Source: Myxococcales bacterium
Lineage (GTDB): Bacteria; Myxococcota_A; Polyangia; Fen-1088
DNA: 36,586 nt
Direction of reading: 5' to 3'
NCBI GenBank assembly: GCA_003153015.1
Contig: PMBS01000127.1
Span: forward strand, 1-36,586
Part shown: positions 1,127 through 33,748 of the stretch, one piece after another
How the letters are laid out: every line of letters begins with the position of its first letter
Position numbering within the stretch: position 1 is the first letter of the stretch
Position numbers and translations under genes: made by a program
Notes under the pieces: generated by a model
What the model saw: only the letters and a program-made list of their open reading frames with translations
Told to the model about the DNA's origin: nothing
The model's database searches: none

Positions 1127-1774
1127 TCACGGCGTTCTCCGGCGCGGCCGCCACTTGGGCAGCAGAGGCTCCAAGGCCCATGGTGCCGGGGCATCCAGCG
1201 CGAACCAGACCTCGCTGCCCCGCCGCTCGGCCATCAAGATGGGCATGGGTTCCGAAGAGCCGTTGAAGTACACGAGGGCCCTGGAGGCGTGCTGCCAGAA
1301 CCAGGGCAGGTTCGCAAGAGATCGTGGCCAGCGGGCTCGGATCTTGTCGACCGGCACGTTGTGGCCGCCTCGGTGCACGCGCACGGCGACTCGCTGAATG
1401 GCCTCCTCGACAGAGCTGAGGACGACGTACACGAACAACACTTGGAATCCCCTCTTCAGGGCCGCCCGGACCATGGGCTTGTACTTCTCGGTACTGAGGA
1501 CCGTCTCGATGACGAACGAGCGCTGCCCGCCCTTGATGAGGTCCCTGACTCGTCGTTCGCACTCGTCAGCAGCTCTCACGTTCGCATCACTGATCGAGAG
1601 CCCCGGGGTGGACCTCAGGATTTCCCGCGTGATCAAATCCGGGTTGATGACCTCTATCTCTGGCCCGCGCGCGTCCAGAAGAACCCGCAGGGTATCGCGG
1701 TCTTGCGCAAACGTAGACTTGCCCGCGCCGTTGATGCCAGCGACTAGGACGAACCACGGCTTGCCAGAACTCAT
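1127..1774 (-). CDS. Zeta-toxin-like P-loop kinase
   Basis: This 215-residue protein opens with a Walker A loop, G-I-N-G-A-G-K-S-T at about residues 13-21, followed by a V-I-N-P-D-L-I motif near residue 43. That is the layout of the zeta toxin/PezT and related AAA_33 family. Known zeta toxins phosphorylate UDP-N-acetylglucosamine and so block cell-wall synthesis. A middle segment with F-V-I-E-T-V-L-S matches the family's conserved strand after the mobile region. The start codon overlaps the stop of the upstream small gene as ATGA, so the two are translationally coupled in the usual toxin-antitoxin order. The family call rests on the P-loop and N-P-D motifs. The actual substrate is not shown, and a non-toxic kinase of the same fold remains possible. 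Confidence 0.75.
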   Translation of the reverse strand: MSSGKPWFVLVAGINGAGKSTFAQDRDTLRVLLDARGPEIEVINPDLITREILRSTPGLSISDANVRAADECERRVRDLIKGGQRSFVIETVLSTEKYKPMVRAALKRGFQVLFVYVVLSSVEEAIQRVAVRVHRGGHNVPVDKIRARWPRSLANLPWFWQHASRALVYFNGSSEPMPILMAERRGSEVWFALDAPAPWALEPLLPKWRPRRRTP

Positions 1775-2080: not shown

Positions 2081-4237
2081 CTACCGGCTCTCCTCGTCCA
2101 GAGCCAGCGTCGCGATGCCGGCTGGTGGAGGCAAGCAGCGCAGGGTGAAGGGCGACGAGGGTACACCGCCCACCAGGAGTTCGACGAAGGCAGAGAAGTT
2201 GGGCATGCCAATGAGATCCATGATGGAGACGGAGGGTTGATAGCCAACCAGGCGGCGGGCGTCCCGCGCGCCTACGCGGAACACGATCTTGGTGCCCACG
2301 TTGCCCAGTACCGCGGCGATGACGTCATCGTCGAGCTGGTCCACGAACTGGTGAGCGAGTACCAGTCCGACGCCGAACTTGCGTACCTCGCTCAACATGG
2401 CGCCGGTGGACGGGCCCGCGATGCGCTGGAACTCGTCGCAGTAGACGAAGAACGGCCGGCGTTGCTCAGGGGGCAGCTCGGCCCGCGACAGCGCCGAATT
2501 GAATGAACCCTGCATGAACACCGCCGCAAGCAGCGCCGTGGCCAGCGGATTGACCCCACCTCGGCCGAGGTTGCACAGCAGCACGCCGCCTCCGTCCATG
2601 ATCTTGCGCAGGTTGAGGGTGGATCGCGGCCGACCCAGGATCGCCTTCAGGACCGGATCGGTGAAGAATTGATTGAACTTGGCAGCGAAGTAGTCGCGTC
2701 GCTCACCCTTGGTGAAGTCCGACTGCTTGTCCCAGCTTCCCTTCCACCACAGAGCCGCCTCAGGAACGCGCTCGGCCAGGTCGGCCGATGATAGCCACTT
2801 GGTGCGGAAATCAGGGTCCATGAACATGCGCGGCAGGTCGGCCATTGTCCCCGGCTGCTCGAAACGCGCGGCGAGCGGCAGCAGGGTATTAGTCACTGCC
2901 TGCTCCCACACGGGCCCTGTCATGTCGCGCGGCCATAGCGAGACCAGAAACTCCACCATCTGCCCAACCTGCAAATGGGCCGCCAGCATATCCTGGCATT
3001 CCAGGGGATTGAGTACGGGCTGCTCTTGCTCCTGATCGGATGCATCAATGAACGTGAGGTCGGCGCGGCGGTTGGCCGGCATCAGGTCGCGCACGGTCCT
3101 GGCGAGCTCACCGTGTGGATCGAAGACCGCCACGCCGTGCCCCTCTTCGAGATCTGCGAGAATGCGGTTGGCGAGAAGCGTGGTTTTGCCCGTACCGGTC
3201 TGGCCGAGAATCCACACGTGACGCAGCCGATCCACAAGCGACAGCCGCACCGGCCGACCGTCGACCGCGTGACCGAACAGCGCCCCGGTCTCAGGCAGAT
3301 CGATCTGTGGCAGGCGCGCCGAGAGGGTGGGCCGCAGCGCGGGAACCAGAGCCATGGCAGCCGCTGCAGGCGGCAGCACGTCGGGCAGAGCCGCGTGCGC
3401 CACCACGACCCGCGATGGGCAGCCCGGCTCGCGCAAGACCGGCGCATCGGGCAAGGTGTGCTCGGGCGAGGTGCGCGTGAAAGCAGTCCAGCGCGCCTCG
3501 CGGGCGCCCAGCGCGTACGCGAGGCTGACACCCACCAGAGACGGCGCGCTGTCCGCCGACCCGCTCCAGGTCACCTGGCAATCGAAGGATAGGGGGGCGC
3601 CATCCCGGCCGCCGTTGCGCGGGCCCGGCCAGGCCGGACGGGGAGCGTGCGCCCCGTCGGCTGGCGAGAGGGTCCACTCCAGCATGGAGGCCACCCGCGC
3701 CGTGGCCAAGAGCGCGATAGCCTGTGCGGGATCGGCTTGGGTAGGCGCCAGGGTCATAGGGGTGCCGCGTTCCTCGGAATCACGTCGTGCAATGGGCTTG
3801 GCGGCCGGGGCACGGTCTTCGACGGGGTGGCCAAGAGCGAGCGACCACGCCCATTCGCCGAACGGGGCGAGCGCGAACAGCAACTCGTCCTGCGTGTCGA
3901 TGGGCTCGAAGCGGTAGCGGGGAAAGCCAAGCACCAGTAGCGAGCGCAGCTCGTCCGGCAGGGTGTCGAACAGAAGTTCGCTGCCGACCTGCACCAGCAA
4001 GTACACCTCGAGGTGGCCGGGCGCGCCCACGGTTGCGGCGGGCAGCACCAGCCAGCGTGCGCTGACCGTCAGGTCGGCTCGGTGTACGGCAGACCACAGC
4101 TCGGCCGGCGTTGCCGGCCGAAACACCGGCGATTCGCCGCGCACGCCGGACAGGCGCAGCCCGAAGATCGCGCCATCAGGTCCCCACAGCGTCGCCACGC
4201 GACGAGGACTCGCCGGGCGGGCAGTGTTCGACAGCAT
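2081..4237 (-). CDS. VirD4/TraG-like type IV coupling ATPase
   Basis: This protein of about 718 residues has a P-loop G-Q-T-G-T-G-K-T at about residues 345-352, followed by the family phrase F-D-P-H-G. A Walker B strand ending in Y-C-D-E-F lies at about 596-603, and a conserved A-H-Q-F segment follows. These are hallmarks of hexameric DNA-pumping ATPases of conjugation and type IV secretion (TraD/TraG/VirD4 and relatives). The first 300 residues match nothing I know and contain no clear membrane segment, so it would need a membrane partner. The ATG at 4237 is preferred over the GTG at 4243 because AGGAG lies six bases before it. It follows the upstream stop by two bases. Neighbouring genes encode membrane proteins and a vWA-like protein, but no relaxase or VirB4 is visible in the window. 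Confidence 0.85.
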   Translation of the reverse strand: MLSNTARPASPRRVATLWGPDGAIFGLRLSGVRGESPVFRPATPAELWSAVHRADLTVSARWLVLPAATVGAPGHLEVYLLVQVGSELLFDTLPDELRSLLVLGFPRYRFEPIDTQDELLFALAPFGEWAWSLALGHPVEDRAPAAKPIARRDSEERGTPMTLAPTQADPAQAIALLATARVASMLEWTLSPADGAHAPRPAWPGPRNGGRDGAPLSFDCQVTWSGSADSAPSLVGVSLAYALGAREARWTAFTRTSPEHTLPDAPVLREPGCPSRVVVAHAALPDVLPPAAAAMALVPALRPTLSARLPQIDLPETGALFGHAVDGRPVRLSLVDRLRHVWILGQTGTGKTTLLANRILADLEEGHGVAVFDPHGELARTVRDLMPANRRADLTFIDASDQEQEQPVLNPLECQDMLAAHLQVGQMVEFLVSLWPRDMTGPVWEQAVTNTLLPLAARFEQPGTMADLPRMFMDPDFRTKWLSSADLAERVPEAALWWKGSWDKQSDFTKGERRDYFAAKFNQFFTDPVLKAILGRPRSTLNLRKIMDGGGVLLCNLGRGGVNPLATALLAAVFMQGSFNSALSRAELPPEQRRPFFVYCDEFQRIAGPSTGAMLSEVRKFGVGLVLAHQFVDQLDDDVIAAVLGNVGTKIVFRVGARDARRLVGYQPSVSIMDLIGMPNFSAFVELLVGGVPSSPFTLRCLPPPAGIATLALDEESR

Positions 4238-4239
4238 GT

Positions 4240-4629
4240 TCACTCCTTTCTTTCGTTCGAGGAAGATGCGCGTTGCGGACCGTGGTCGTTGGCCGCCCCG
4301 CTGTCCGTCCCGTCCTCATCGCACTCCAGCAGCATGAGCGCTTCTTCCCCTCCACCGACCTCGGCCGTCACCGCGCCTTCGTGACCCATTTCATCGGCCA
4401 TCGCTCGCGCTCGCTGCATCCCAGCCACCACCGCCCATGCCGACTGCGCCGCCACCGGCGTGCCGGACATGGACTGCTCCAACCGGCGCAGGAGCCGCTC
4501 ACGCCGCCGTGCCCACCCCGTCCCGTCGGTGGCGTTGTCACGGCAGGGCTCCCGGCGTTCAAGCTTTGCAGCGGTTGCCTGCTCGGCCATCGCCTCGGAC
4601 CGCAACGCGGGTTTCGTCTTGGGGGCCAT
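4240..4629 (-). CDS. Small hydrophilic protein of unknown function in the coupling-ATPase cluster
   Basis: This 129-residue charged protein has a basic, Arg-rich middle (around R-R-R-E-R-L-L-R-R-L) and an acidic, Ser/Asn-rich tail. No known domain is recognised. AGGAG at 4640-4636 lies six bases before the ATG at 4629, which makes this a better start than the upstream ATG at 4635 or TTG at 4650. It sits directly upstream of the coupling ATPase, two bases apart, so the two are probably translated together. A DNA-binding accessory role would fit the composition and position but is speculation. Confidence 0.7.
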   Translation of the reverse strand: MAPKTKPALRSEAMAEQATAAKLERREPCRDNATDGTGWARRRERLLRRLEQSMSGTPVAAQSAWAVVAGMQRARAMADEMGHEGAVTAEVGGGEEALMLLECDEDGTDSGAANDHGPQRASSSNERKE

Positions 4630-4678
4630 AGTCATCTCCTCGGTTGCCAAGACGCGCGTGCGGGCTTTTCCCTGACGG

Positions 4679-4975
4679 CTAGAGACCGAAATCAGCTCGG
4701 GCGGGCAATCTCGACAGCGGGCGCCCGGTTGACCGGCCTGCCAGATGATTGGCCTGGCTGGCGGTCGTTGGGTGTTGGTTCGCCATTCCCTGCGCCGGCA
4801 GCATCGGAGTCCCGGTCAACAACCGGTACGCCATGTACCCAGCCAGCACGAGGGCCACAATGGCGGCCACCCTGACCATGAGCTTGATCAGGCGCCACAA
4901 GATCAATGCCGCCAGCAAACCCAAGATGGCCAGACCCAGCGGGTTCTGCTGCAGGATGGAGTAGATGGTGTTCAT
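4679..4975 (-). CDS. Small two-helix membrane protein
   Basis: This 98-residue protein has two closely spaced hydrophobic stretches at roughly residues 12-27 and 34-52, separated by a basic turn (R-L-I-K). A polar tail of about 40 residues follows. It lies between the four-helix membrane protein (15-base gap upstream) and the small hydrophilic gene in a minus-strand cluster. It could be a membrane anchor or assembly partner for the coupling ATPase, which lacks its own membrane segments. No family is recognised. Confidence 0.7.
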   Translation of the reverse strand: MNTIYSILQQNPLGLAILGLLAALILWRLIKLMVRVAAIVALVLAGYMAYRLLTGTPMLPAQGMANQHPTTASQANHLAGRSTGRPLSRLPARADFGL

Positions 4976-6237: not shown

Positions 6238-7017
6238 CTACTTGGCCGCGCGGTACGCGACGCACGCGGGCTCAAACCGCACGCGATCAGGCGCGGTGAA
6301 TTCGCGCCGGAACGCGCTCTCGACGACTTCCAGGGTGGGCAACTTGGCCGCGTTCCGTCCGATGTGCCGGGCGGACAATGAGCAGAAGCGCACGGTCACG
6401 TTCCGGTTCGCTATGCGTGGCTCAGTCTCGGCCCGCGCGTCGTTTGTGACATGTGGTCGCTTGGCCGGACGTAGTGCGGACATCACACGCGCGTCCTCTT
6501 CCTCAATACCGTCAGTCCGCACCACGACCTCGCAAGTGATCTTGTCGCGCTGGCACAGCTCGGCCGGCATGGTCTTCACCGCGGCGCTGACCGCACGGAA
6601 GATGGGACTTTCCTTGCGATTCGGGATCTGCGGGCACAACTTCTTCACGTCAGCGAGGAAGGCTTGGCGAGACTCCTCGTCGGCCGCAGCACCCTCCAGG
6701 ATGCGCGTGCCCGACTGGTACTCCACTGTACCGAGGCGAGTTGGTTCGAAGCCGCTGGGGCGATCTCCGGTGGCAAAGACCGTCAAATGCAACTTGCCCA
6801 CGCTTTGCTGCGCAGCCTCGTCCGCCAGTCGTCCCAGGTCCTCGCAGCGGGATGTCGGATTAGACGTCAGCGACGCGTCCACCACGATGGCCCGGTAGCT
6901 TTCGGGCACAGGAGGCGCCTTGCGTGCGAATACCCACAGTCCAGCCGTCCCGAGTACCGAGGCGACGGCCAGGGTGGCGATGATTTCGCTACGGGTGCGA
7001 GAGCGGCTTGTGTTCAT
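6238..7017 (-). CDS. Membrane-anchored vWA-like protein
   Basis: This 259-residue protein starts with a basic stretch and one hydrophobic helix (about residues 11-30), typical of a signal anchor, so the bulk would be periplasmic. After it comes V-V-D-A-S-L-T-S, resembling the metal-binding D-x-S-x-S/T site of von Willebrand A domains. Later strands such as V-V-V-R-T-D-G-I-E-E are also placed as in vWA folds. Several cysteines could form disulphides. It is the most upstream intact gene of the minus-strand coupling-ATPase cluster. The vWA call rests on the first motif and strand pattern only. Confidence 0.6.
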   Translation of the reverse strand: MNTSRSRTRSEIIATLAVASVLGTAGLWVFARKAPPVPESYRAIVVDASLTSNPTSRCEDLGRLADEAAQQSVGKLHLTVFATGDRPSGFEPTRLGTVEYQSGTRILEGAAADEESRQAFLADVKKLCPQIPNRKESPIFRAVSAAVKTMPAELCQRDKITCEVVVRTDGIEEEDARVMSALRPAKRPHVTNDARAETEPRIANRNVTVRFCSLSARHIGRNAAKLPTLEVVESAFRREFTAPDRVRFEPACVAYRAAK

Positions 7018-7643: not shown

Positions 7644-8365
7644 TCAGACCGCCGTCTGAATGAGCACGCCGCTCGTGTCGTCGGGAGCATCCCGTTCCTC
7701 GACTTTGGACTGGTGGAAGCGAGCCTTTTCTGCCAAACCGAGGTTGTTGGCAAAGACCGCCTTGACCTGGTCGATCCCGAGCACTTTGAAGAGACCGTCC
7801 GAGCAGAGCAGATCGCCCGGCCGAACCTCACGGAGAGTCGTCTCCATGGACAGATCAAGCTCGCTTTCCGTGCCTCCGAAGTAGCTGGTCAAGGGGCTGG
7901 CAGCGTCCAGATCGTTGAGCACCTGCTCATCCGCAAGCCGAAAGAACCTGTCTTCGCGTAACATCCACGCCTCTGAATCGCCGGCGTTCACGATGCGAAA
8001 TCCGTCCTGCCAGTGCAAGAGCCTTACCAGGGTGGTTCCTGCGCCGAAGGCGTCGGGGCGTCTCGCGTGTGCGCAATGATCTCGACGTTTATCGCCTCAA
8101 GCAGCGTACTCAACCCCGCTCCGCCGTCCGGGGGCGGCAGGGCAAGGCGAGCGCGGATCTGCTCAAGCACGAAGGTGGACGCGACCTCACCCGCGCGTGT
8201 GCCAGCGATGCCATCGGCCACGAAGCAGCGGCACGTCAGTCCCCTCGCGGCGGTCGCAGACCCGCCCTCGAGGATTTGGTCTTGGAGCAGGATACGGTCT
8301 TGGTTCGCCGCCTTCGATGGCGCCTTGAGGGTAAAGCCTGCGACGTTGAACCACACGAACCACAC
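7644..8365 (-). pseudogene. Frameshifted PP2C-type protein phosphatase, relative of the intact gene at 25847
   Basis: The first half (from a GTG at 8365 or 8356) carries N-Q-D-R and V-A-D-G-I-A-G. The second half, in another frame, carries N-A-G-D-S-E-A-W, L-L-C-S-D-G-L and D-A-P-D-D-T-S. Together they cover the whole PP2C domain and align end to end with the intact phosphatase at 25847-26566. The frame changes at about 8045-8060, where one base appears to be missing. A second lesion removes two residues just before L-L-C-S-D-G (intact: G-D-I-V-L-L; here G-D-L-L). All metal-binding aspartates are still present, so the decay is recent. It lies head to head with the giant kinase, the classic arrangement for a kinase-phosphatase pair. 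Confidence 0.8.
8348..8365 (-). repeat. Tandem 9-bp duplication at the start of the PP2C pseudogene
   Basis: On the minus strand GTGTGGTTC occurs twice in a row (8365-8357 and 8356-8348), giving V-W-F-V-W-F where the intact paralogue has one V-W-F. It duplicates the putative GTG start codon. Confidence 0.75.
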
Positions 8366-8382: not shown

Positions 8383-11300
8383 ATGACGTGGCGTGATACC
8401 CTGGCGGACGAAATGGCTTCGCCTCCGAAGTACGCTGGACCAGCCGCGCCGCCCACCGAAGCCTACAAGGAGGCGCGGAGCCCCCAGACCGAAGCCTACC
8501 GGGACGATAGGGCCGGTACACAGGCCTATCGGGACGGCGGCGGCTCGCCTTCGACCGAGGCGTACACGCGTGGAAGAGCGCCAGCGCGTTCAGACATGCA
8601 GGGTGAACTGCCCGTGGGCACGGAGGTCAAGCTTTCGTGCGGAACTGTTGCGGTGGAACAGGTCATCTCGCATGAGCGCGCGACCGGTGAGGCCGCCGTG
8701 TACCTGGTCGGTGACGGCCAGGGACGCAAGTACGCCCTCAAGCTCTACCACGAGTTCAGTGACGCCAGGGACGAGCCGAATCCGGTAGCACTCGAGCGCA
8801 TCCAGGGAATTGAGGACCCCGACATCCTGCGACTGCACGCGTTCGGCACGGGAAAGGACAAGTATGATGGGCGCTGTTGGGAGCTAAGTGCATTTGCCGA
8901 GGGCAAAACGCTCCTAGATGTTCCGGACCTCGGCGCAAAGTACACGCCCGACTTCATCCGGAACTGCGTTGTTCCGCAGATCCTCAACGGAATCCAGAAA
9001 CTACACAAGCATCAGATCATTCACTGTGATCTCAAGCCACAGAATATCTTCTACCTGGACAGTGACCAGCTTGACCTAGTCATCGGTGACTACGGATCTT
9101 CCAAGACCGCGGAAGAAGGATCCAAGAAGGAGGTATCATACGCATCGACGAACAAGGCGACTCCGCTGTACATCGCACCTGAGCAGGCGATAGGACTCAT
9201 CGGCAAAGGGAATGACTACCACGCATTCGGGATGACTCTCGTCCACCTACTTTTCCCCAAGATGCTGAACAAGTCCGAATACGGCAAGATCCGGGAAAGG
9301 CAGTTCAACAAGAAACCCATCGTTATCGAATCTCCCGCGGAACACAAGGACATCGTTCAATTGATAGGCGGGCTCACTCTCCACGACGAGAGCCTTCGCT
9401 GGGGCGCGGCCGAGGTGCAACGGTGGCTTGCGGGCGAGAATGTTCCGGTCCGATATAGCAACGAGGCTGCCGTCGACCCGATCAAGCTTGGCCGGGACCG
9501 GACGATCCAATCGCCATCGGACCTGCTGGACTATGTCGAAACCAAGCCCGATTGGTACGAGACGTTGATCGCGGATGATGTGGGTTTCACTAGCTTGAAA
9601 AGGTGGGTTTCTCAGACGCGCGATTTGGAGCAGATGCGCGATTTCGACAAGCGCGTCCGGACCTGCCAGCAGGATAGCAAGGAATACGTTCAGGTGGCGA
9701 TCCTACGCTTCTTCGAGCCTGAGCGTCCCATCATGGTGGATGGCCGGCGGTACGATCTGTGGGGGGCGGAGAACCTACTGGTGGAAGTCACGCGTCTGGT
9801 CCGTCATCTCGATGATCTCTGGAAGATCGTGGCCCTTGCGCAGTTGCGCTTCCATGTGTTCCAATTGGAGATGTCACTGCGGCAACTCGCCGCAATTGAC
9901 GGACGCGGCGACGACGCCAAGCAAGTCTGCGGTCTGATTGAGGCTGCACTGCGAACCGTCGGAAATTGGTACGCGAGCCTCACGCAGGAACAAGTGCTTG
10001 AACTCGCGTATGCGTTCATGCCCGATCGGGGATTTCGCGATGGCAAGGGCACCGAGTGTCGTGACCTGGAGACGCTGGGGCTGTATTTCGCACGCACACC
10101 GGGCGCCTACGAGGAACAATGGCTCGCGGTCGAACGACACCGTTTTCTTCGGCAGCTCAATCGGGCTGATTTTCAGGACATGGACTACAGGACGTTCCTG
10201 TTCGGAGTGTTTCGCGAGCGGATTCGCTGCGGGTTGGAGCTGCAAGAGGTGAAGCAGAACTTTGTGGGCTATGAGGTGCTGTTTCGAGCCGGGCGCTCAC
10301 TAACGGGTTTCTTCACGTCGAGGGGGATCACCAACAAACTGTTCGAAGTCAGCCAGAAGCCCGAGAGTGCGGTGGTTGCAAACCGGAATCTGTGGCTAGC
10401 TTCTCGCTTCTCTGGCCACGCGCTGGCCCGCCAACTCGAGGCCGAAGTCGTTGGTGTTGTGGCAGACGTCCACCGCCTTGGCGTTTCGACGCTAGATGTC
10501 GCATCCCGGAGGGCATTCCAGAGGGATCTGTTCAAGTTCGCCCGATCAGCAACCCGACCATTTCGTGTCGCAGCGTTTGCAACTCTGGCAGTGATCGCAA
10601 CGGTGAGCGGGATCATAGTTGCCTCCTCCATCAGCGCAGGCTCACGTGACCGCGAAATCGATAGGCGGCTCAAGGTTGTTGAGCAGGCCTCGCTGCAACA
10701 AAACTGGACCGCTGCGTTGGAGGAGCTGGATAGCCTTAGGGAGCAGTTCAAGAGCGATCTGCTTGCGAACAACGCGGGGCGACGGTTTAGTGGTCTTGCG
10801 TTGACGGCCTGCCGCAGCGTACTGGGAAAGAAGTGGGACTCCTCGAGCCCAAGCACCGCCTTCGCCGAAGTAACTGGGCACGGGTCCTGCGAGAGCGTCC
10901 GCGGGTCCATGCGAGAGGACGTCGCCGGGCGCGTGTTTGCAATGGGCACCCAGCCTTCCGCACTAGACAGAGCCGGTGATGCTGCGGTACGGGAGGCTAT
11001 CGCCCACTTCCGCGCATCACCGCGATCCGTCGATCAGTCGAGATGGCTTGATCTGGCAATGCTCTGCCACGGGGGCCAATGGACCGCATCCGGCTCGCAG
11101 TCGAAGTCCGGAGAGGTCGGGATGATCTTCAAAGACAAATACAATATCTCTGTTCGCGCCGTGGATGTGGCCTGGAGCCCCCCCGCGTCGGCGCGCTTCG
11201 CATTCGAATACACTCTCCACGGCGAGACACACGGGGTGAACGTGTTTTGCGCTCCCAGCTTGTTCGCGAATGGCCGCGAGTACAAGCCGGTTGACAGGTC

Positions 11301-11904
11301 GTGCAGTAGATTCACGGCAGACAACCAAACCCTTCGGAATGAGTTCACCTACGCGCTGCCGCCGGCCGCTCTGCTGACGACAACAATGCGGTTTGACGCG
11401 TATAGCGATTTGTCGTTTATGTTGCGTGTGGCGGCCAATAGTCCCGATCCGCCATCGTCGTGTACCGACGTGGTCCCGTTGACCGACTTCCGCACGGTCA
11501 GTCAACGCCGTTCAGCCCCGACGCGCGTGGTGCGGCCGACGAGTGGGTTGGCAGGGCAGGAAGCGGGCAGTGCTCAACCCGGAGTGTCGGCGGGGGCTGT
11601 TGATCCGGCGGAGCTACAGGGGGCGTGGACAGGCAACCTGCAAGGTGGCGGCCAGATCAAGCTGATAGTGGAAGATGCGAGCAGTCGCATCGTCGAGGCG
11701 ACCGCCACGACCATGACCAGCGACGGTGAGTTCAACACGTTGAAGCTGCGTGGCCCGCTGAACGGAAGATCGTTGGTGCTGCGGGCTGATGATGGTTCAC
11801 GCCTATCCGTCAAACACAAAGACAGCGGGGCCGGGGAAATGCTCGCCGGCAGCTGGCAAGTGAAAGGCGGTCCAAGATTGTCTTGGACCGGGAAGAAGCG
11901 ATGA
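8383..11904 (+). CDS. Giant membrane-bound Ser/Thr protein kinase with N-terminal TEAY repeats
   Basis: From the ATG at 8383 the product has 1173 residues; TTG 8374 or ATG 8413 are alternatives. Residues 25-61 hold four T-E/Q-A-Y repeats. A Hanks-type kinase domain follows at about 90-380. It has the ATP-binding lysine in Y-A-L-K-L (K120), the catalytic loop H-C-D-L-K-P-Q-N (D216, N221), D-Y-G at 236-238 in place of D-F-G, and Y-I-A-P-E. The glycine loop is poorly conserved. A long helical region leads to one hydrophobic segment at about 728-752, after which roughly 420 residues would be outside the cytoplasm. The last 100 residues are beta-rich (G-A-W-T-G-N), like small lipocalin-type domains. 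Its stop overlaps the next gene as ATGA. HCD instead of HRD marks a non-RD kinase, so activation-loop phosphorylation may not be its main control. Confidence 0.9.
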   Translation: MTWRDTLADEMASPPKYAGPAAPPTEAYKEARSPQTEAYRDDRAGTQAYRDGGGSPSTEAYTRGRAPARSDMQGELPVGTEVKLSCGTVAVEQVISHERATGEAAVYLVGDGQGRKYALKLYHEFSDARDEPNPVALERIQGIEDPDILRLHAFGTGKDKYDGRCWELSAFAEGKTLLDVPDLGAKYTPDFIRNCVVPQILNGIQKLHKHQIIHCDLKPQNIFYLDSDQLDLVIGDYGSSKTAEEGSKKEVSYASTNKATPLYIAPEQAIGLIGKGNDYHAFGMTLVHLLFPKMLNKSEYGKIRERQFNKKPIVIESPAEHKDIVQLIGGLTLHDESLRWGAAEVQRWLAGENVPVRYSNEAAVDPIKLGRDRTIQSPSDLLDYVETKPDWYETLIADDVGFTSLKRWVSQTRDLEQMRDFDKRVRTCQQDSKEYVQVAILRFFEPERPIMVDGRRYDLWGAENLLVEVTRLVRHLDDLWKIVALAQLRFHVFQLEMSLRQLAAIDGRGDDAKQVCGLIEAALRTVGNWYASLTQEQVLELAYAFMPDRGFRDGKGTECRDLETLGLYFARTPGAYEEQWLAVERHRFLRQLNRADFQDMDYRTFLFGVFRERIRCGLELQEVKQNFVGYEVLFRAGRSLTGFFTSRGITNKLFEVSQKPESAVVANRNLWLASRFSGHALARQLEAEVVGVVADVHRLGVSTLDVASRRAFQRDLFKFARSATRPFRVAAFATLAVIATVSGIIVASSISAGSRDREIDRRLKVVEQASLQQNWTAALEELDSLREQFKSDLLANNAGRRFSGLALTACRSVLGKKWDSSSPSTAFAEVTGHGSCESVRGSMREDVAGRVFAMGTQPSALDRAGDAAVREAIAHFRASPRSVDQSRWLDLAMLCHGGQWTASGSQSKSGEVGMIFKDKYNISVRAVDVAWSPPASARFAFEYTLHGETHGVNVFCAPSLFANGREYKPVDRSCSRFTADNQTLRNEFTYALPPAALLTTTMRFDAYSDLSFMLRVAANSPDPPSSCTDVVPLTDFRTVSQRRSAPTRVVRPTSGLAGQEAGSAQPGVSAGAVDPAELQGAWTGNLQGGGQIKLIVEDASSRIVEATATTMTSDGEFNTLKLRGPLNGRSLVLRADDGSRLSVKHKDSGAGEMLAGSWQVKGGPRLSWTGKKR
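8455..8565 (+). repeat. Four TEAY/TQAY peptide repeats in the kinase N-terminus
   Basis: The motif T-E-A-Y or T-Q-A-Y occurs at residues 25, 36, 46 and 58, separated by 10-12 residues of polar, probably disordered sequence and followed each time by a charged residue. Each holds a threonine and a tyrosine that a kinase could modify. Confidence 0.8.
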
Positions 11905-21167: not shown

Positions 21168-23495
21168 TCATTCGGTGACGGCTCCCCCGCCTGCCTTGCG
21201 CTGCTTGCGTAGCGCCTGCACGAGTTTCATGTTCTCCAGGTCGGGCGTGCCCTTCTTGGCGACATCTCGCGAGGCATTGGGATCGAAGGCCGGCCGATTC
21301 TGAAGGGGGCTGCCTTCGCAATAGTAGAACCAATCCTGCGCACCGGTGTTGAGACGGCGACCGTAGCGCGCCAGGGGTGCGTTGATGAGGAAGCCGAGTT
21401 CCTCCGCGGTGAGCGACTTCATGTCGTCGTCCGTGAGCATCTCCCCAGAGAGAGCCTTGGTGACGGCCGCAAGCAACTCTTGGCGCACGTTCTTGCGGAC
21501 CACGAGTTCGTCGGACCAGGATTTCGCTTCCTTGTTGTCGGGATTCGCCACTCTCGCCTCGGCAAACATGCGTTCGGCTTCGTCCCAGTTGTTGCGGGCC
21601 GAAGCAATGCGCCCAAGGTTGCGGGCCGCAGAAGCCTTCACCTGGGGATCTGTGGCCAGGTCGAGCGCTTTGCGTGCGGCTTGTTCTGCGCCAGTATAGT
21701 CACCGCGGCCGCAAATGTCATACGCTGCCCGGTAGGTGGCGAACCCGAGTACTGACCAGGCCTCTGCACAACCGGGGTCGATCTGGGTGGCTTGCCTGGC
21801 CTTGTCGACTGCCTCGCGGAACCACGCGGTATCAGTAGGTTTCTGCGCCTTCTTTGACGAAAGCTTCAGCGCGGCGGCGAGGGGTTCGCCATTCGCGGGA
21901 TCGCGAGCCTTGGAACAAGGGACGTCGCCCTGTCCGCCCGGCGTGTTCACCGCCGTGCCAGGGGTGGGCGTCGGACTGGCGGCCGGCCCCCGCGTCCAGC
22001 GCCGCAACTCACGGTGCATGGGGCCGCTCTCCTCGAGCCAGACGAGAATGCTGGCCGGGTTCTCGACAAAGTAGGCACAGCCACGCTGGACCGCAGCGGC
22101 CTTCAGGGCGGGCCTATCCGGGAGCGGCGCGCATACCCAGACGTTTTGAGGGTTCAGGGCAAAAACGAAGCTCGATCCACGCCAAGACCAAGTCAGCTGA
22201 GTATCGAGCTTGGATTGTGAATCGTCGCGCAAGTCGGTGCAGTTGGCCTGAAAGCGAGCCTTGCCGTCTCGAAAGAACGTGTAGCGCGCATTCTCGCAAG
22301 TTTCCCGTGAGCCACCTTCGTCATCGAGAACCACCTCCCTCCACTCTCCGACCATGTTCGGAACTGGCGTATCAACTGCCGCACGGCTGCCCGCCGCAAG
22401 AGAAGGCGCCGGCTGCCCTAGTCGGGGTGGCGTCTGGGAGAACGCGCTCCCAGTATCCATTCTTGCTCTTCTCGTGGCGCCCTGGTCGCCAGGGTGCCAA
22501 TTGGAGAGCAGAAGGAAAGCCAGCGGGAAGTACAACAGGACCGCAAAGCGTGGGGCCCACCATCGCGCGCGATGCCCGAAGGTCACCGACGACGCCACGC
22601 CCGGGTCCGGAGCAGCCGGGGTCGGACGTTGTCCCATGGTTTCAGCCAGGGCGGCGCCTCGTACTGCGGTGGCCACGAGGCCAACCAAAAGAAGGTGCTC
22701 ACGTATGAGATCGCGGTGGCTCGGGGTTGTCCACGTCTTTGCGTAGTCAAGGCGGGCAAGCAACGAGGTTCCGAAGCACCAGCAGCCATACCACCGATCA
22801 TTCTCCCTTATGCTTGGCACCTGCCCGCGCGTCAGCCAAGCCGTGACCGCGAAGAAGGCCCAGGGCAGGCTGAAGGTGAGGAAATCGGCCACCCATGCGA
22901 CCAGCCAGATCGGCAGCCAGAGGAGGAGGTAGTTCAAGTGAAGCTTCTGGGCGATGTAGAAAAAGAAGAAGGTGAACGCCCGGAAGACGTGGATGCCAGC
23001 CCCCAGCAGCCAGTCGAAGCCGGGAATATGGATCAGACCACTCTTCAAGTGGCTCTGGTCGGCCCGTCGGTAGATTCGCTGCATGTGAGAGTCGGCGAGC
23101 GAATCAACGGAACGCCGCTGGTCGGCGGTCAACTCGTCGTCAGGGAGCGAGGGCGCGGGCACGCCCCGACGAGCGGCGCCAAGATCCATGGCCACGACCA
23201 CGGACCAGCAGAAGTCGACCATCTCCCGCGGAATCGTGTCCACCAGCCGCCGCAAGCGCGTCTTTTCTTCGTCAGGGTAGGGAATTGCCTCCACGGCCAC
23301 TGTCAGGCTGCCGCTGATCATGGACCGGGCCTCGGCCCGGTCGGCTTCGCTCGCTTGCGCGATGGCGTCCTTCGCGCCGACGTAGTCGTGGTCGTCGTAG
23401 CCGGCAACGTAGGGCGACGCCTTGCCTTTGGTCAGGCTGCCGATGAGGGCACGGAAGCTGTCAAACGGACCTATGTCTTCGGTACGCTCTACCAT
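21168..23495 (-). CDS. Membrane protein with beta domain, TPR and YARHG-like tail, paralogue 1
   Basis: The 775-residue product has a soluble N-terminus (1-160). Several hydrophobic helices lie at about 167-223, a weak one near 268-285, and one at about 315-331. A Pro-rich linker follows. Residues 378-495 form a beta-rich domain with paired cysteines (G-E-W-R-E opening). Residues 530-680 are TPR-like. The region around 700-740 (L-I-N-A-P-L-A-R-Y-G-R-R) resembles the extracellular YARHG domain. The first 376 residues are nearly identical to paralogue 2 at 23830-25380, and similarity ends sharply after A-A-V-D-T. GGAG precedes the ATG by five bases in both copies. Function unknown; the architecture suggests a membrane stem that displays different extracytoplasmic modules. 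Confidence 0.8.
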   Translation of the reverse strand: MVERTEDIGPFDSFRALIGSLTKGKASPYVAGYDDHDYVGAKDAIAQASEADRAEARSMISGSLTVAVEAIPYPDEEKTRLRRLVDTIPREMVDFCWSVVVAMDLGAARRGVPAPSLPDDELTADQRRSVDSLADSHMQRIYRRADQSHLKSGLIHIPGFDWLLGAGIHVFRAFTFFFFYIAQKLHLNYLLLWLPIWLVAWVADFLTFSLPWAFFAVTAWLTRGQVPSIRENDRWYGCWCFGTSLLARLDYAKTWTTPSHRDLIREHLLLVGLVATAVRGAALAETMGQRPTPAAPDPGVASSVTFGHRARWWAPRFAVLLYFPLAFLLLSNWHPGDQGATRRARMDTGSAFSQTPPRLGQPAPSLAAGSRAAVDTPVPNMVGEWREVVLDDEGGSRETCENARYTFFRDGKARFQANCTDLRDDSQSKLDTQLTWSWRGSSFVFALNPQNVWVCAPLPDRPALKAAAVQRGCAYFVENPASILVWLEESGPMHRELRRWTRGPAASPTPTPGTAVNTPGGQGDVPCSKARDPANGEPLAAALKLSSKKAQKPTDTAWFREAVDKARQATQIDPGCAEAWSVLGFATYRAAYDICGRGDYTGAEQAARKALDLATDPQVKASAARNLGRIASARNNWDEAERMFAEARVANPDNKEAKSWSDELVVRKNVRQELLAAVTKALSGEMLTDDDMKSLTAEELGFLINAPLARYGRRLNTGAQDWFYYCEGSPLQNRPAFDPNASRDVAKKGTPDLENMKLVQALRKQRKAGGGAVTE

Positions 23496-23829: not shown

Positions 23830-25380
23830 TCACCACTCAGGCGGCTTGTCACTCCGGATGGGCTCATAGTTTGTCGTTGGGCGACCGTTTTGGTCGATAT
23901 ACCCTCTGCGTGAGATGTATTGCTTGCTTCCTGCGCAGTTGGGATTTTCCGCAATCACGGCAAGAAACCTTGCATTCCTGCCATTGCCGGTTGATCTGAA
24001 CTGAAACTGAAGAAACCTGAGAAGCTTGTTGTCTGGCAGTCCGAAATTGAGCGATTTCCAAGGCTCGCGCGCGAAGATGCGCGCAACATCGACGTCCGTC
24101 GTCCGCCCATTGCACAAACTCGGAGTGAAGTGTCGGGAACCTTTCGGGAACGAATAGTTTTTCCCGCTCTGGTCCCAGGCGGCCAAGGCACCCGCATACA
24201 TCACGTTCAAACGCCCAACCACAACTTCATCCAGTGACGGGCCAACGGTGCGCGTATCTACTGCCGCGCGGCTGCCCGCCGCAAGAGAAGGCGCCGGCTG
24301 TGCTAGTCGGGGTGGCGTCTGGGAGAACGCGCTCCCAGTATCCATTCTTGCTCTCCTCGTGGCGCCCTGGTCGCCAGGGTGCCAATTGGAAAGCAGAAGG
24401 AAAGCGAGGGGGAAGTACAACAGAACCGCGAGGCGCGGAACCCACCATCGCACGCGATGCCCGAACTTCACCGGCGACGCCACGCCCGGGTCCGCCGCAG
24501 CCGGGGTCGGACGTTGCCCCATGGTTTCGGCCAGCGCCGCGCCTCGTGCTGCGGTGGCCACCAGGCCAACCAAGAGAAGGTGCTCACGTACGAGATCGCG
24601 GTGGCTCGGGATTGTCCACGTCTTTGCGTAGTCAAGGCGGGCAAGCAATGAGGTTCCGAAGCACCAGCAACCGAACCACCGATCGTTCTCCCTTATGATC
24701 GGCACCTGCCCGCGCGTCAGCCAAGCCGCGACCGCAAAGAAGGCCCAGGGCAAGCTGAAGGTGAGGAAATCGGCCACCCATGCAACCAGCCAGATCGGTA
24801 GCCAGAGGAGGAGGTAGTTCAGGTGAAGCTTCTGGGCGATGTAGAAGAAGAAGAAGGTGAATGCCCGGAAGACGTGGATGCCGGCCCCCAGCAGCCAGTC
24901 GAAGCCGGGGATATGGATCAGACCAGTCTTCAAGTGGCTCTGGTCGGCTCGTCGATAGATCTGCTGCATGTGAGAGTCGCTCAGCGACTCGGCAGAATGC
25001 CGCTGATCGTCGGTCAACTCCTCGTTCGGGAGCGATGGCGCCGGTACGCCTCTACGAGCGGCGCCAAGATCCATGGCCACGACCACGGACCAGCAGAAGT
25101 CGACCATCTCCTGCGGAATCGTGTCCACCAGCCGCCGCAAGCGCGTCTTTTCTTCGTCGGGGTAGGAAATCGCCTTGATGGCCACCGTAAGGCTGCCGCT
25201 GATCGTGGACCGGGCCTCGGCCCGGTCGGCTTCGCTCGCTCGCGCGATGGCGTCCTTCGCGGCGACGTAGTCGTAGTCGTCGTAGCCGGCAACGTAGGGC
25301 GACGCCTTGCCTTTGGTCAGGCTGCCGATGAGGGTGCGGAAGCTGTCAAACGGACCTAGGTCTTTGGTGTACTCTGCCAT
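23830..25380 (-). CDS. Membrane protein with pilin-like C-terminal domain, paralogue 2
   Basis: The ATG at 25380 (GGAG five bases upstream) gives 516 residues; the open frame extends further but without a ribosome site. Residues 1-376 repeat the soluble N-terminus and membrane helices of paralogue 1. The remaining 140 residues are different. They include E-P-W-K-S-L-N-F-G-L, an aromatic strand, R-F-L-A-V-I-A-E-N and a final K-P-P-E-W. This order resembles the C-terminal half of type IV pilin-like proteins of delta-type proteobacteria, which have P-W-x-x-L-G-F followed by a beta sheet and an acidic end. The pilin resemblance is from pattern only. Two cysteines (in S-L-C-N and P-N-C-A) may form a disulphide. 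Confidence 0.8.
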   Translation of the reverse strand: MAEYTKDLGPFDSFRTLIGSLTKGKASPYVAGYDDYDYVAAKDAIARASEADRAEARSTISGSLTVAIKAISYPDEEKTRLRRLVDTIPQEMVDFCWSVVVAMDLGAARRGVPAPSLPNEELTDDQRHSAESLSDSHMQQIYRRADQSHLKTGLIHIPGFDWLLGAGIHVFRAFTFFFFYIAQKLHLNYLLLWLPIWLVAWVADFLTFSLPWAFFAVAAWLTRGQVPIIRENDRWFGCWCFGTSLLARLDYAKTWTIPSHRDLVREHLLLVGLVATAARGAALAETMGQRPTPAAADPGVASPVKFGHRVRWWVPRLAVLLYFPLAFLLLSNWHPGDQGATRRARMDTGSAFSQTPPRLAQPAPSLAAGSRAAVDTRTVGPSLDEVVVGRLNVMYAGALAAWDQSGKNYSFPKGSRHFTPSLCNGRTTDVDVARIFAREPWKSLNFGLPDNKLLRFLQFQFRSTGNGRNARFLAVIAENPNCAGSKQYISRRGYIDQNGRPTTNYEPIRSDKPPEW

Positions 25381-25525
25381 CGGGTCTCCATTTGCTTGTG
25401 GCTCTATCAGGCTCATACGTCTCGAAAAGGTGTCCACGCTGGTCAAGGACGTCGGGTCGACGGCTAATCTGACGGCATGCCGCATTGACTCACGCAGCAT
25501 CGGGGAATGTCATGGCGCGGTCAAG
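24253..25525 (-). repeat. Direct repeat, copy 2 (5' region and first 376 codons of paralogue 2)
   Basis: Second copy of the segment at 22368-23641, in the same orientation and 1885 bases further on measured from start codon to start codon. The divergence is mostly at third codon positions. Confidence 0.85.
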
Positions 25526-25846: not shown

Positions 25847-26566
25847 GTGTGGTTCGACGCAGCCGGATTCACTCAGAAGGCGCCATCCAAGCAGGCGAAT
25901 CAGGACCGAGTTCTCATCCAAGATTGCCTCCTAGAGTCGGGCGTGACGTGCGCGCCGAAGATGGCGGCATGCCGTTGTTTCGTCGCCGACGGTATCGGCG
26001 GAACTCGGGCGGCCGAGATCGCATCGGCCTTCGTGCTGGAACAGATCCGCGAGCGCCTTGTCGTTCCCCCTCCCGACGGCGGCGCGGGGCTGCGCGCGCT
26101 GTTCGAGGCCATCAACGCGGACTTGATCGCGCGCACCGCGCCCGACCCCGCGACATCTGGCGCGGGAACGACGCTTGTGGGGCTCCTGCACTGGCAGGAC
26201 GGATTTCGAATCGTCAACGCGGGGGACTCGGAGGCATGGATGATGCGCGAGGATCGGTTCTTCCGCCTTTCGGAGCGGCAGAGCCTGCGTGACATGCAGG
26301 ATGACAGCCCCGTAACCAGTTACTTCGGTGGCCCCGAGAGCGAACTCGACCTCTGCATGGACACGTCGCTCCGCGAGGTTCTGCCCGGGGACATCGTGCT
26401 GCTGTGTTCCGACGGGCTCTTCAAGGCGCTCGCGGTCGACCAAGTCAGGGCTGTCCTACGCAACAGCCGGAACCTGGCCGAGAAGGCCGAGTTTCTGTGC
26501 GCCAGCGTGGCCAAGCAGGATGCACCGGATGACACCAGTTGCATCCTTGTCCAGGCAGTGGCCTGA
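25847..26566 (+). CDS. PP2C-type Ser/Thr protein phosphatase
   Basis: This 239-residue, single-domain PP2C/SpoIIE-fold phosphatase removes phosphate from Ser/Thr using two metal ions. The family motifs are all present: N-Q-D (18-20), V-A-D-G-I-G-G (46-52), G-A-G-T-T-L (105-110), N-A-G-D-S-E-A (124-130), L-L-C-S-D-G-L (185-191) and D-D-T-S (228-231). Metal-ligand aspartates D48, D189 and D229 are conserved. The GTG start lies just after a -10-like box, so the mRNA is probably leaderless. It leads a five-gene operon ending in an FHA protein. Its likely targets are the phosphoproteins made by the kinase at 8383. A frameshifted relative lies next to that kinase. Confidence 0.92.
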   Translation: MWFDAAGFTQKAPSKQANQDRVLIQDCLLESGVTCAPKMAACRCFVADGIGGTRAAEIASAFVLEQIRERLVVPPPDGGAGLRALFEAINADLIARTAPDPATSGAGTTLVGLLHWQDGFRIVNAGDSEAWMMREDRFFRLSERQSLRDMQDDSPVTSYFGGPESELDLCMDTSLREVLPGDIVLLCSDGLFKALAVDQVRAVLRNSRNLAEKAEFLCASVAKQDAPDDTSCILVQAVA

Positions 26567-26611: not shown

Positions 26612-28180
26612 ATGAGCCATTCGGACTGGTCCCCCCCCCCACCTCAGTACTCGGCCAAGGTTTTCGATGGCCTCCTGCGCACCGTCTTTGAGGGGCAGGC
26701 GCGTATCCGCGGGCTCCTGTCCGATCTCCAAGGGCTCCGGGTCGACGACCAGGTCCGCAAGATCCAGTTCGACTGCTCCGAGTTCCTGCGCGAGCATGAA
26801 GACCGCTGCAGCTCTCTGCTGCAGCCGTTCGTGGTTCTGCCCAGCGGCACATTCGGCGAGGAAACGCGCGCTCAGATCCAGGGAGCTATCACCTCGCGGC
26901 AGCGCGAGGTGGATGAAGCTCTGCGCCTGTTGCAGGGGGAGAGGGACGCCTTCGCCAGCAAGAAAGACGATCACGACGCTTTCGTGGCATACGAGCAGCA
27001 CTACCAGCACGTTCTTGAGTCTTTTCAGCAGTTCCAGAAACGCGTGTGCGCCTACATAGCTGAGTATTTCGGTGGGGAGGACCCTGTCGCGGTTGCGCGC
27101 GCGCAGAAGGAAGTCATGGCGGCGGCACCGCAGATCCATCACGGCCAGTTCAGGGCCGGCTTCCGAAGGGTCGCCGAACGCGAAGAGCACGCCGCAGACG
27201 AAGCGGTAGAGGCCAGCCGGCGAGCCGTGGATCGAATCCGCGCCGCCACGGCCAAGGGAAGCAGTCCGACCCCTGCTGTCCGCCACGGGGCCGCGCCCGC
27301 AGCGCAGCCAGTGTCTGACGAAGATGTAGAGAAACTGACACGGCAGATCGAGAGACGCATCGCCACGTTGGCGGAAGAACCCGACCGCGCGGCTTGCCGG
27401 GATAGGCTCACCAGGCTGCAGAGAAACACGGAATTCGTGGGGGATCCTTACTACTACAGAGAACTCCACGACAGCGTGCTCGCCCTCGCCACTACCCGCC
27501 GCCTACAGGCACAGACGGCGGCTGCACTCGGGGACATCCCGGCAGCCGGCATCCACCCTTCACTTCGTGCCAAGCACGCGTCGCTAGCCGTCAGGATCAG
27601 GAAGTTCCTCTCCCAGCCGTGCGTGAAGGTCTGCGAGGCCGACGCACTTCGCGACGATCTGGCCGCCCTCGCGAAGGAGAGCCGTGAGGTCTACGCCGCC
27701 GAATTCGTCGCGGAACGTGAGCGCGACTTCCTTCGCCGTCAACTCTGCCATTCCCTCATCCGACTTGGATACGAGGTAGTCGAGGACACGGCGGCCGCAG
27801 ACCTCGCCAAGCCTGGCGACGTGTTCTTGCGGATTCCCGACCAAGACAACATCGTGCACCTTGAGTTCAGGGCCGACGGCCACATCATCCATCGCTTCCT
27901 GATTCCCGAGGCGCGTGACGAGTTGAGCCTCGAGGCCAAACACCAGAGGGTCCAGGAGATGGCACGGTCTTGCCAGACTTTTCAATGCGCCGTCGACGAG
28001 TTGCGTGCCATCGGCGTTCCAATTCCAGCGCCGCGCGACACTCCGGCCAGCGAGAAAGCCTTGATCCAGGTACCGGCGAAGTACCGTGCCAAGCTCAAGA
28101 CCACTGGCTCTCGTCCTCGGTCAGTGCAGAGGACCGACCAGCAGCAACTCCGGGTAGGTTCTCGCCGCCCACCCCGGTGA
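26612..28180 (+). CDS. Long coiled-coil protein of the PP2C/AAA+/radical SAM operon
   Basis: The 522-residue protein has no recognised domain. After a run of prolines (residues 8-11) it is helical and charged to about residue 205, with heptad-like stretches. A Pro/Ala linker follows, then more helices (235-390), a small beta-rich segment at about 398-425 (H-L-E-F-R-A-D-G) and a basic tail. GGAGG lies seven bases before the ATG. The gene starts 45 bases after the PP2C stop. A broken copy of its N-terminus follows the broken PP2C at 7018-7642, so the two genes travel together. A scaffold for the phosphatase or the AAA+ protein is the simplest guess. A ten-C run at codons 7-10 makes it a candidate for slippage. 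Confidence 0.8.
   Translation: MSHSDWSPPPPQYSAKVFDGLLRTVFEGQARIRGLLSDLQGLRVDDQVRKIQFDCSEFLREHEDRCSSLLQPFVVLPSGTFGEETRAQIQGAITSRQREVDEALRLLQGERDAFASKKDDHDAFVAYEQHYQHVLESFQQFQKRVCAYIAEYFGGEDPVAVARAQKEVMAAAPQIHHGQFRAGFRRVAEREEHAADEAVEASRRAVDRIRAATAKGSSPTPAVRHGAAPAAQPVSDEDVEKLTRQIERRIATLAEEPDRAACRDRLTRLQRNTEFVGDPYYYRELHDSVLALATTRRLQAQTAAALGDIPAAGIHPSLRAKHASLAVRIRKFLSQPCVKVCEADALRDDLAALAKESREVYAAEFVAERERDFLRRQLCHSLIRLGYEVVEDTAAADLAKPGDVFLRIPDQDNIVHLEFRADGHIIHRFLIPEARDELSLEAKHQRVQEMARSCQTFQCAVDELRAIGVPIPAPRDTPASEKALIQVPAKYRAKLKTTGSRPRSVQRTDQQQLRVGSRRPPR
26631..26640 (+). repeat. Homopolymer run of ten cytosines inside the coiled-coil gene start
   Basis: Ten consecutive C bases cover codons 7-10 (S-P-P-P). 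Gain or loss of one base would shift the frame directly after the start codon. Runs of this length are typical of slipped-strand phase variation, but they are also prone to sequencing error. Confidence 0.8.
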
Positions 28181-30137: not shown

Positions 30138-30748
30138 GGCTCAACCGGATTCAGGCCCCGGTGACCAACCTGGGACCCGGGCGCCGGATCGCGCTCTGGG
30201 TGCAGGGGTGCAGCCTGGGCTGTCCAGGGTGTATGTCGCCCTCGATGCAGGACCGCGACGGTGGACGTGACGTCGATGTGCGGACGCTGGCCGAGGGTCT
30301 TGCCGCAGCGGCTGCGGGTTTCGACGGACTCACCATCTCTGGCGGCGAACCGTTCCAGCAGTACGGAGCCTTGATGGCACTGTGCTCATACTACAAGGCT
30401 CTCTGCCCACGCACCGTGCTGGTCTACACTGGCTACCGGATAGCGGAACTGGAGCGTGATCATCCCGAGCGGGCGTTCCACAAGACTCTCGACTACCTGA
30501 TCGATGGCCGCTATTTGCGAAGGCGGCACGATGGCCGCTGGAGGGGTTCCACCAACCAGCGGCTCTATCGCTTCCTCACCGGTCAGGCGGTGGAGTGCAA
30601 TCCCTGGTGGTCCTATACTGAGAAGACCATGATGTTGTCCGTACCGGACGCGCTCCATGCGACGATGGCTGGCATCCCTGAGCGGGGCGACCTGGCTCGC
30701 CTCAGAAGGGCGATGCGCTCTTCTGGCATCAAGATGAGGCTCAGATGA
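30101..30748 (+). CDS. Radical SAM protein of the NrdG-like activating-enzyme type
   Basis: This 215-residue protein has the radical SAM cluster motif C-x3-C-x2-C in Q-G-C-S-L-G-C-P-G-C (C37, C41, C44) and the SAM-binding G-G-E-P at 81-84. The run P-G-R-R-I-A-L-W-V-Q-G-C at residues 26-37 is typical of small activases such as the class III ribonucleotide reductase activator NrdG. No NrdD partner or glycyl-radical enzyme lies nearby, so its substrate is different or unknown. The start lies 37 bases inside the AAA+ gene and its stop overlaps the FHA gene (ATGA), so the three are tightly coupled. It needs a 4Fe-4S cluster and is likely oxygen-sensitive. Confidence 0.88.
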   Translation: MQAPAHSLSIALRLNRIQAPVTNLGPGRRIALWVQGCSLGCPGCMSPSMQDRDGGRDVDVRTLAEGLAAAAAGFDGLTISGGEPFQQYGALMALCSYYKALCPRTVLVYTGYRIAELERDHPERAFHKTLDYLIDGRYLRRRHDGRWRGSTNQRLYRFLTGQAVECNPWWSYTEKTMMLSVPDALHATMAGIPERGDLARLRRAMRSSGIKMRLR

Positions 30749-31368
30749 CGATCACATGCAGCTACTGCGATGAGCCTCTGGCGACGCAGGAAGGACAACC
30801 GCTCCCCCGAACGTGTCCGAAGTGTTTCAAGGAGGTCGAATCGTGGAAGGGGGCGGGGATGCCGGCTGCCTCCCATGGGGGTGCCGGGGGGACATCGACC
30901 ATGCCTTCCCTTGTGCTGCTGAATGTGAAGACCAGAAAGCGCATTCCCATCCCCGACGACGAGCAAGTTGTCATCGGACGTGAGGCCGAAGGTGCCGAAG
31001 CCCTTTCGAATATGCCACAAATCAGCCGGGAACATTGTCTGATAGTCCGGACCGGTGGCCGTTTGACGGTGCGAGATCTGGGCTCGCGTCACGGTACCTT
31101 CGTTGGCGAGGATAGGCTCGACTGCAAGGACAGTGCGCAGCCCATCGAGAACAACTCCCTGCTCCACCTTGGTCGCGAGTGCTTCCTCGTCATGCTGGCC
31201 GTGCCAACGGAGCTCGCGCCTGCCCCGCCCAAACCCTCGGATGAGTCTCAATCTGAAAGCTCGGTTCCGCCGACGCTGGAACGGTGGCACTGCAAGATCT
31301 GTGAAAACTCTGCCGCCAAGGGGCCAGAGAACGGTGTCTGCCCCGTGTGTGGAAAATACAGCGGGTAA
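30745..31368 (+). CDS. FHA-domain protein flanked by two zinc ribbons
   Basis: The 207-residue protein starts with a zinc ribbon (C5, C8, C24, C27). The FHA domain spans about 56-152 and keeps the phosphothreonine-binding residues G-R-E (78-80), S-R-E-H (94-97) and G-S-R-H-G-T (113-118). A Pro/Ser linker leads to a second zinc ribbon (C183, C186, C199, C202). FHA domains recognise phosphothreonine, so this is the reader of the signalling module whose kinase is probably the protein at 8383 and whose eraser is the PP2C in the same operon. The start overlaps the radical SAM stop by four bases. Confidence 0.92.
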   Translation: MTITCSYCDEPLATQEGQPLPRTCPKCFKEVESWKGAGMPAASHGGAGGTSTMPSLVLLNVKTRKRIPIPDDEQVVIGREAEGAEALSNMPQISREHCLIVRTGGRLTVRDLGSRHGTFVGEDRLDCKDSAQPIENNSLLHLGRECFLVMLAVPTELAPAPPKPSDESQSESSVPPTLERWHCKICENSAAKGPENGVCPVCGKYSG

Positions 31369-33681: not shown

Positions 33682-33748
33682 AGGCCGCTGTCAGAGCGGC
33701 GGCTCGGCACGCGTCCCAGGAGGCACCCCAATTGGAAGGAAGACGATC

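Follow-up and report, generated by a model that had tools for sequence, protein, structure and literature searches.

The window analysed here is a stretch of 36,586 nucleotides from a Myxococcales bacterium (contig PMBS01000127.1 of assembly GCA_003153015.1). It encodes a Ser/Thr protein kinase of 1163 amino acids (8413-11904, plus strand) with a repeated threonine motif in its N-terminal tail, as well as an FHA protein that is proposed to read this motif. The kinase is recognized by Pfam (Pkinase, E = 2.2e-18) and by a hidden Markov model (HMM) of the operon kinase (E = 1.1e-40); the HMMs for kinase, FHA, PP2C, and radical-SAM (rSAM) proteins used throughout were built from proteins of a Firmicutes operon. 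According to the alignment, the catalytic Lys, HCD, DYG, and APE are all present, and reading of the sequence by eye adds an extended C-terminal part that probably includes a transmembrane stretch.

The tail, taken as residues 1-68 from the ATG at 8413 (8413-8616, plus strand), contains four units on the same strand: TEAY at 8455-8466 (T15), TEAY at 8488-8499 (T26), TQAY at 8518-8529 (T36), and TEAY at 8554-8565 (T48), with threonine spacings of 11, 10, and 12 residues. An alternative TTG start of the reading frame at 8374 is also open. A preliminary description of this DNA had reported the four T-[EQ]-A-Y units at 8455-8565; these coordinates are exact, and shuffling of the 68-residue tail places the units beyond chance, as at least two T[EQ]AY occurred in only 4 of 200,000 shuffles, with a maximum of two and never four. 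The codons of the units vary synonymously (ACC/ACA, GAA/GAG, GCC/GCG, TAC/TAT) with T, A, and Y constant, and the linkers between the four units cannot be aligned. Thus, the array is not a fresh tandem repeat of DNA. In the predicted structure, the predicted local distance difference test (pLDDT) value is below 50 over tail residues 1-63 and mostly 60-95 in the kinase domain; since the mean pLDDT of the whole model is 48, only the contrast between tail and domain is used. On this basis the tail is predicted to be disordered, in agreement with the preliminary description, and the kinase domain to be folded.

Among 317 genomes of the class, a DNA pattern encoding two T[EQ]AY units matches the window gene and two others, which are, judging by eye from the matched letters, a 43-bp DNA tandem repeat and a Q-rich stretch; the backwards control of the same pattern has matches in four genomes. 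The non-catalytic part of the kinase has no match in the 316 other class genomes (1/317 being the window's own), the whole protein found no orthologue in the class either, and scans of genome contigs and viral contigs revealed no relatives of the window kinase. The T[EQ]xY tail was also considered as a general trait of the genome's kinases and rejected, being absent from all 30 loci examined among the 84 kinase matches; 7 overlapping kinase loci of the source genome have no repeat either. The kinases of the source organism thus do not carry such a tail as a rule.

Six kinds of genes (kinase, hypothetical protein, FHA, rSAM, AAA, and PP2C) are all found in the window, although the match of the hypothetical protein is weak, and form two clusters 14 kb apart. 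The first comprises the kinase and an adjacent PP2C-type phosphatase (7644-8341, minus strand), which is frameshifted and whose halves match the PP2C HMM with E = 4.9e-12 and 2.2e-8. The second, entirely on the plus strand, begins with an intact PP2C-type paralogue (25847-26566; HMM E = 1.3e-26, PP2C_2 E = 1.1e-8). Compared with this intact copy, the frameshifted phosphatase has a one-base gap and also a 6-base gap, and its frameshift may reflect either true decay or an assembly error. The intact PP2C is followed by the hypothetical protein (26612-28180), for which hhalign reports a weak match to the one encoded by the Firmicutes operon, restricted to 113 columns at the C-terminal end (probability 69, E = 4.4e-5 in a single comparison), and by a ClpB-like AAA+ ATPase with a family-specific N-terminal domain (28215-30137; AAA_2 E = 1.2e-46). 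No AAA homologue with E ≤ 1e-75 was found in 308 other class genomes, nor any match when viral sequences were scanned with AAA alignments; across the class genomes the kinase and the AAA are patchy in a similar way. The cluster ends with a 4Fe-4S rSAM protein of the NrdG/activase type (30101-30748; Fer4_12 E = 2.7e-29, HMM E = 1.9e-38) and the FHA protein (30745-31368; FHA E = 6.6e-13, HMM E = 9.9e-13), the proposed tail reader, which starts with a Cys-rich, zinc-ribbon-like stretch.

The window FHA protein belongs to the FHA family both by sequence (49.3 bits in Pfam against a cut-off of 20.7) and by fold, as the best Foldseek matches of its model are FHA domains (E = 4e-7). It lies 19 kb from the kinase and is homologous to the FHA protein that adjoins the kinase elsewhere. 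The preliminary description had named an FHA protein and a PP2C in the window; what it missed is that the intact PP2C stands with the FHA gene and that the one beside the kinase is frameshifted.

Relatives of the gene set and the residue at T+3

The best kinase match in a tblastn search of plasmids (E = 4e-15) belongs to an Aristaeella plasmid, on which the genes are contiguous in the order kinase-hypothetical-FHA-rSAM-AAA-PP2C. Scanning species genomes with an N-terminal AAA alignment (window and Aristaeella) resulted in 32 loci, each of which has a ClpB-type AAA by design of the search. BLAST reports an FHA protein in 14 of the 32, and L135 has a truncated FHA-like open reading frame (ORF) with the same zinc-ribbon start. 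A kinase of the operon type is present in 12 of the 32, according to the locus DNA examined. Whole or partial sets are held by the Firmicutes loci, and the gene set is found mainly in this phylum, as well as in a genome labelled Chloroflexi and in the window genome. Another 12 of the 32 loci (L149, L150, L152, L154-L161, and L163) have, besides AAA and rSAM, a weak match to a DUF4011 helicase, and neither an operon-type kinase nor FHA was found in them. The full set of loci having no operon-type kinase in the DNA examined includes L133, L138, L139, L142, L145, L149-L151, and L153-L163; L152 has one canonical kinase without a tail.

As a separate observation, the AAA and rSAM pair adjoins, on Rhizobium and Caballeronia plasmids (L113, L114, L117, L118, and L131), a protein in which the kinase is joined to a large helicase of the DUF4011 type. 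In L120-L123 and L125, which are Proteobacteria plasmids, its neighbours are instead a large protein with an AAA domain and another with a PIN domain.

In total, 15 kinases were compared: 12 from the loci, both Aristaeella kinases, and the window kinase. All 15 have a repeated N-terminal T-x-x-X motif with at least two same-letter units. The unit is T-x-hydrophobic-N in 11 (L134, L140, L141, L143, L144, L146, L147, L148, L164, and Aristaeella 1 and 2) and T-x-hydrophobic-M in 3 (L135, L136, and L137), while T-[EQ]-A-Y belongs to the window kinase alone. The residue at +3 is near-constant within a kinase and varies between lineages; both kinases of the one Aristaeella locus carry the letter N. 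The preliminary description had asked whether repeat number varies among homologues while the motif holds. The array is indeed kept, with 2 to 6 copies, but its letters change to those given above.

According to a shuffle test pooled over 14 tails, with L164 dropped as a near-copy of L148, identity within a tail at T+3 is 0.49 versus 0.07 in shuffled tails (z = 13.4). Other offsets score lower, namely +2 (z = 7.9), +1 (z = 5.9), and −2 (z = 4.1), the rest having z of at most 2.2. For single tails, whose ends were set by eye, the shuffle p ranges from <0.0002 to 0.41. One cluster scan used a +3 letter picked per locus after the tails had been seen, and a second scan repeated it without this choice. 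The second scan covered 955 ORFs of at least 100 amino acids from the same loci with no letter chosen beforehand; at least three units within 45 residues were detected in 10 of the 15 kinases and in 5 of the 940 other ORFs.

As for loci without FHA, five Rhizobium and Caballeronia kinases, which are helicase-fused and have Cys-rich starts, show neither repeats nor an excess at +3 (z = 1.3). FHA-less here means that BLAST detected no FHA, and these controls represent a single clade and five of six kinases, L131 having been dropped as a near-copy of L118 and L119. Their lack of a +3 excess agrees with what a docking role of the tails would suggest.

The tail as a putative docking array

The observed basis of the interpretation consists of the repeats, the constancy of the +3 residue, the near-confinement of such units to the tails of gene-set kinases, and the gene set itself. 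We consider it likely that the tail would act as a multivalent phosphothreonine (pThr) docking array for the FHA protein of its own gene set, erasable by PP2C; phosphorylation, FHA binding, the PP2C reset, and everything downstream of them are inferred. The kinase, acting on itself or on a sister molecule, would phosphorylate several tail threonines, and the FHA protein of the same gene set would bind the resulting pThr residues, reading the +3 position (Tyr here; Asn or Met elsewhere). Multiple sites may provide avidity and dependence on kinase activity, and their number may define a threshold. Removal of the tail phosphates by PP2C would reset the system. Once docked, the FHA protein would place its zinc ribbon at the kinase, possibly together with the AAA or the hypothetical protein.

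In FHA domains, pThr is contacted by Arg, Ser, and His, plus a loop Asn, and the window FHA keeps R79, S94, and H97 but has His at the loop position. The constancy of +3 is what FHA docking predicts: according to one source, the choice of an FHA domain among pThr peptides is set largely by the pT+3 residue, and the motifs recognized by FHA domains include pTXXM (PMC5549992). Another reports that known FHA domains accept Tyr or Phe at +3 and that the PELI1 FHA domain binds an IRAK1-pT141(+3Y) peptide at 0.42 uM (PMC11884936). Asn at +3 was not found as an FHA preference in the sources consulted.

Several observations weigh against this interpretation. In the window FHA the usual loop N is replaced by H116. 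The FHA ORF of L135 is without the GR and SRxH segment, and the tail of this locus keeps five TxxM; the FHA protein of L137 has K in place of the phosphate-binding R. Inspection of FHA loop residues against the +3 letter revealed no clean co-variation. The source genome has 28 FHA matches, so another FHA protein could be the reader. Short tails are weak when taken singly (p from 0.13 to 0.41 for L137, L140, L143, and L144). On the kinase tree, from which L113, L119, L131, L178, and L179 were left out, the labels N, M, Y, and no tail require 3 changes, the least possible; because the letters follow the tree, they amount to about three independent letters and not to 15 tests. The letter Y, moreover, rests on one genome, and the tree position of the window kinase is unsure owing to its very long branch. 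Finally, five loci of the same phylum found with the AAA profile (L176-L180) have FHA, AAA, and a canonical glycine-loop kinase without a tail, so the presence of FHA alone does not predict one.

These five loci, four of which have rSAM, are taken as a sister system because their kinases, three of which were placed in the tree, form a separate, well-supported group and because the zinc ribbon is missing from their FHA proteins; the kinases have a long C-terminal domain. The FHA-docking reading of the preliminary description is partly sustained: the constancy of +3 and the shared gene set speak for it, and the five same-phylum FHA loci with a tailless kinase against it.

The same 28 matches, the H at the loop position, and the tailless same-phylum loci would also fit an array that is phosphorylated but read by another FHA protein of the genome, or one whose phosphates influence the kinase itself through their charge. 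This seems unlikely, since in other phyla the tails recur where the FHA of the gene set adjoins the kinase or lies a few genes off, and a pure charge role would leave the +3 residue unfixed.

It is rather improbable that the repeats are gripped unphosphorylated, for instance as a handle by which the ClpB-like AAA or the hypothetical protein remodels the kinase. ClpB-like ATPase substrates usually need an unstructured end, a ClpB-type AAA accompanies every locus (though by search design), and the +1 and +2 positions are also somewhat constant. However, loci with helicase, AAA, and rSAM but no such kinase keep the AAA, which therefore does not need the tail; kinases fused to a helicase beside the same AAA are tailless, and position +3 dominates over the other offsets. 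It is very hard to credit that the array arose by chance, or by neutral expansion of repeats within a low-complexity tail: the tails are disordered and built of few residue kinds, and several single-tail shuffles are non-significant, but the units differ by synonymous codons, even two T[EQ]AY are scarce among the shuffles, and all 15 kinases share the layout with differing letters.

Neighbouring genes and known systems

A membrane-anchored vWA-like protein (6238-7017, minus strand; DxSxS by eye, no Pfam match) stands between the PP2C beside the kinase and a HerA/VirD4-like ATPase (2081-4243, minus strand; TrwB_AAD_bind E = 1e-9; MAD8 as the top PADLOC model, E = 6e-14). A paralogue of the latter, 69% identical, is found elsewhere in the genome (G000:C113), accompanied by homologues of two small ORFs of the window (4240-4650 and 4679-4975). 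The HerA-like gene was considered as an anchor of the system and rejected, as in the stretch read its paralogue has no nearby homologue of the kinase from tail to C-terminus, of PP2C, or of the vWA-like protein; one weak kinase-domain match lies at least 23 kb away. The window also encodes a ClpP protease homologue (33743-34330, plus strand; E = 2e-56) about 2.4 kb past the FHA gene and 3.6 kb past the ClpB-like AAA, a zeta-toxin-like ATPase (1127-1774, minus strand; E = 8.9e-9), and two tandem paralogues (21168-23495 and 23830-25500, minus strand) that are near-identical over their N-terminal parts (about 350 residues) but unrelated in the remainder.

Among known systems, kinase pThr recruits an FHA protein and PP2C opposes it in PknB/PknG with GarA/OdhI, FhaA, and FhaB of mycobacteria and corynebacteria. 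The docking sites known there lie in the activation loop or a juxtamembrane segment, not in a repeated N-terminal array, and rSAM, AAA, and the hypothetical protein are extra components of the window's gene set. Among NCBIfam models, the window FHA scores best with FhaB, though far below its cut-off. As for the FHA module of type VI secretion (TagH/PpkA), it was rejected with 22.2 bits for the FHA protein against a TagH cut-off of 120.25.

The kinases match the MAD6, PD-T4-6, and Mko defence models via their kinase domains only. MADS resembles the window in that, among PADLOC models, the kinase is matched best by MAD6 and the HerA-like gene by MAD8. Membership was nevertheless rejected, since the kinase scores 40.8 bits against an NCBIfam MAD6 cut-off of 460, confined to the kinase domain region; no other MADS parts were seen in the window. 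KKP phage defence likewise involves kinases, PP2C, and FHA domains on mobile elements, but FHA is fused to the kinase there, and a separate FHA protein, rSAM, and AAA are not described in the available part of the source (PMC11341870). The window was not assigned to KKP (PP2C followed by two kinases, one with cold-shock and one with FHA domain), as Pfam finds neither domain in the kinase, and no second kinase stands beside the window PP2Cs among the ORFs scanned. In the kinase-PP2C-vWA neighbourhoods of conflict systems (eLife 2020, PMC7159879), the likeness extends to the vWA-like ORF near the window kinase; the available part of that source describes neither an FHA/rSAM/AAA operon nor tail repeats. 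Regarding other neighbours, L140 lies beside restriction genes (GmrSD and the R subunit of a type I restriction-modification system), and L148 adjoins RecQ and a glycosidase. Evidence for an anti-phage role is circumstantial, consisting of the patchy distribution, the plasmids, and these restriction neighbours of L140.

Both pThr arrays and FHA readers are known already. However, neither an array that the kinase itself carries in its N-terminal tail, with a +3 residue specific to the lineage, nor the six-gene set is described in the open-access literature searched, subscription papers and preprints being mostly outside this search. The pairing of kinases with FHA proteins is rarely legible from bacterial genomes despite the abundance of both. 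If the +3 letter reflects FHA specificity, it would offer a readable partner code and ready-made peptide sets for natural FHA variants, as well as a way into what seems to be an undescribed kinase-FHA-rSAM-AAA-PP2C system.

A likeness is also drawn to MDC1 of the vertebrate DNA damage response, whose four TQXF motifs are read by the FHA domains of RNF8 and PELI1/2 (PMC11884936). Both arrays consist of four short T-x-x-aromatic motifs, and in MDC1 the threonines are phosphorylated and then recognized by FHA domains that have a +3 preference (PMC11884936). In contrast, the MDC1 array resides in an adaptor phosphorylated by ATM and the present one in the kinase itself, and no homology is implied. 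The chances appear even that the tails represent a swappable pThr address, i.e., a kinase-borne landing strip for FHA in which the lineage-specific +3 letter (Asn, Met, or Tyr) would tune each kinase to its own FHA protein, similar to the TQXF motifs of MDC1 but built into the writer.
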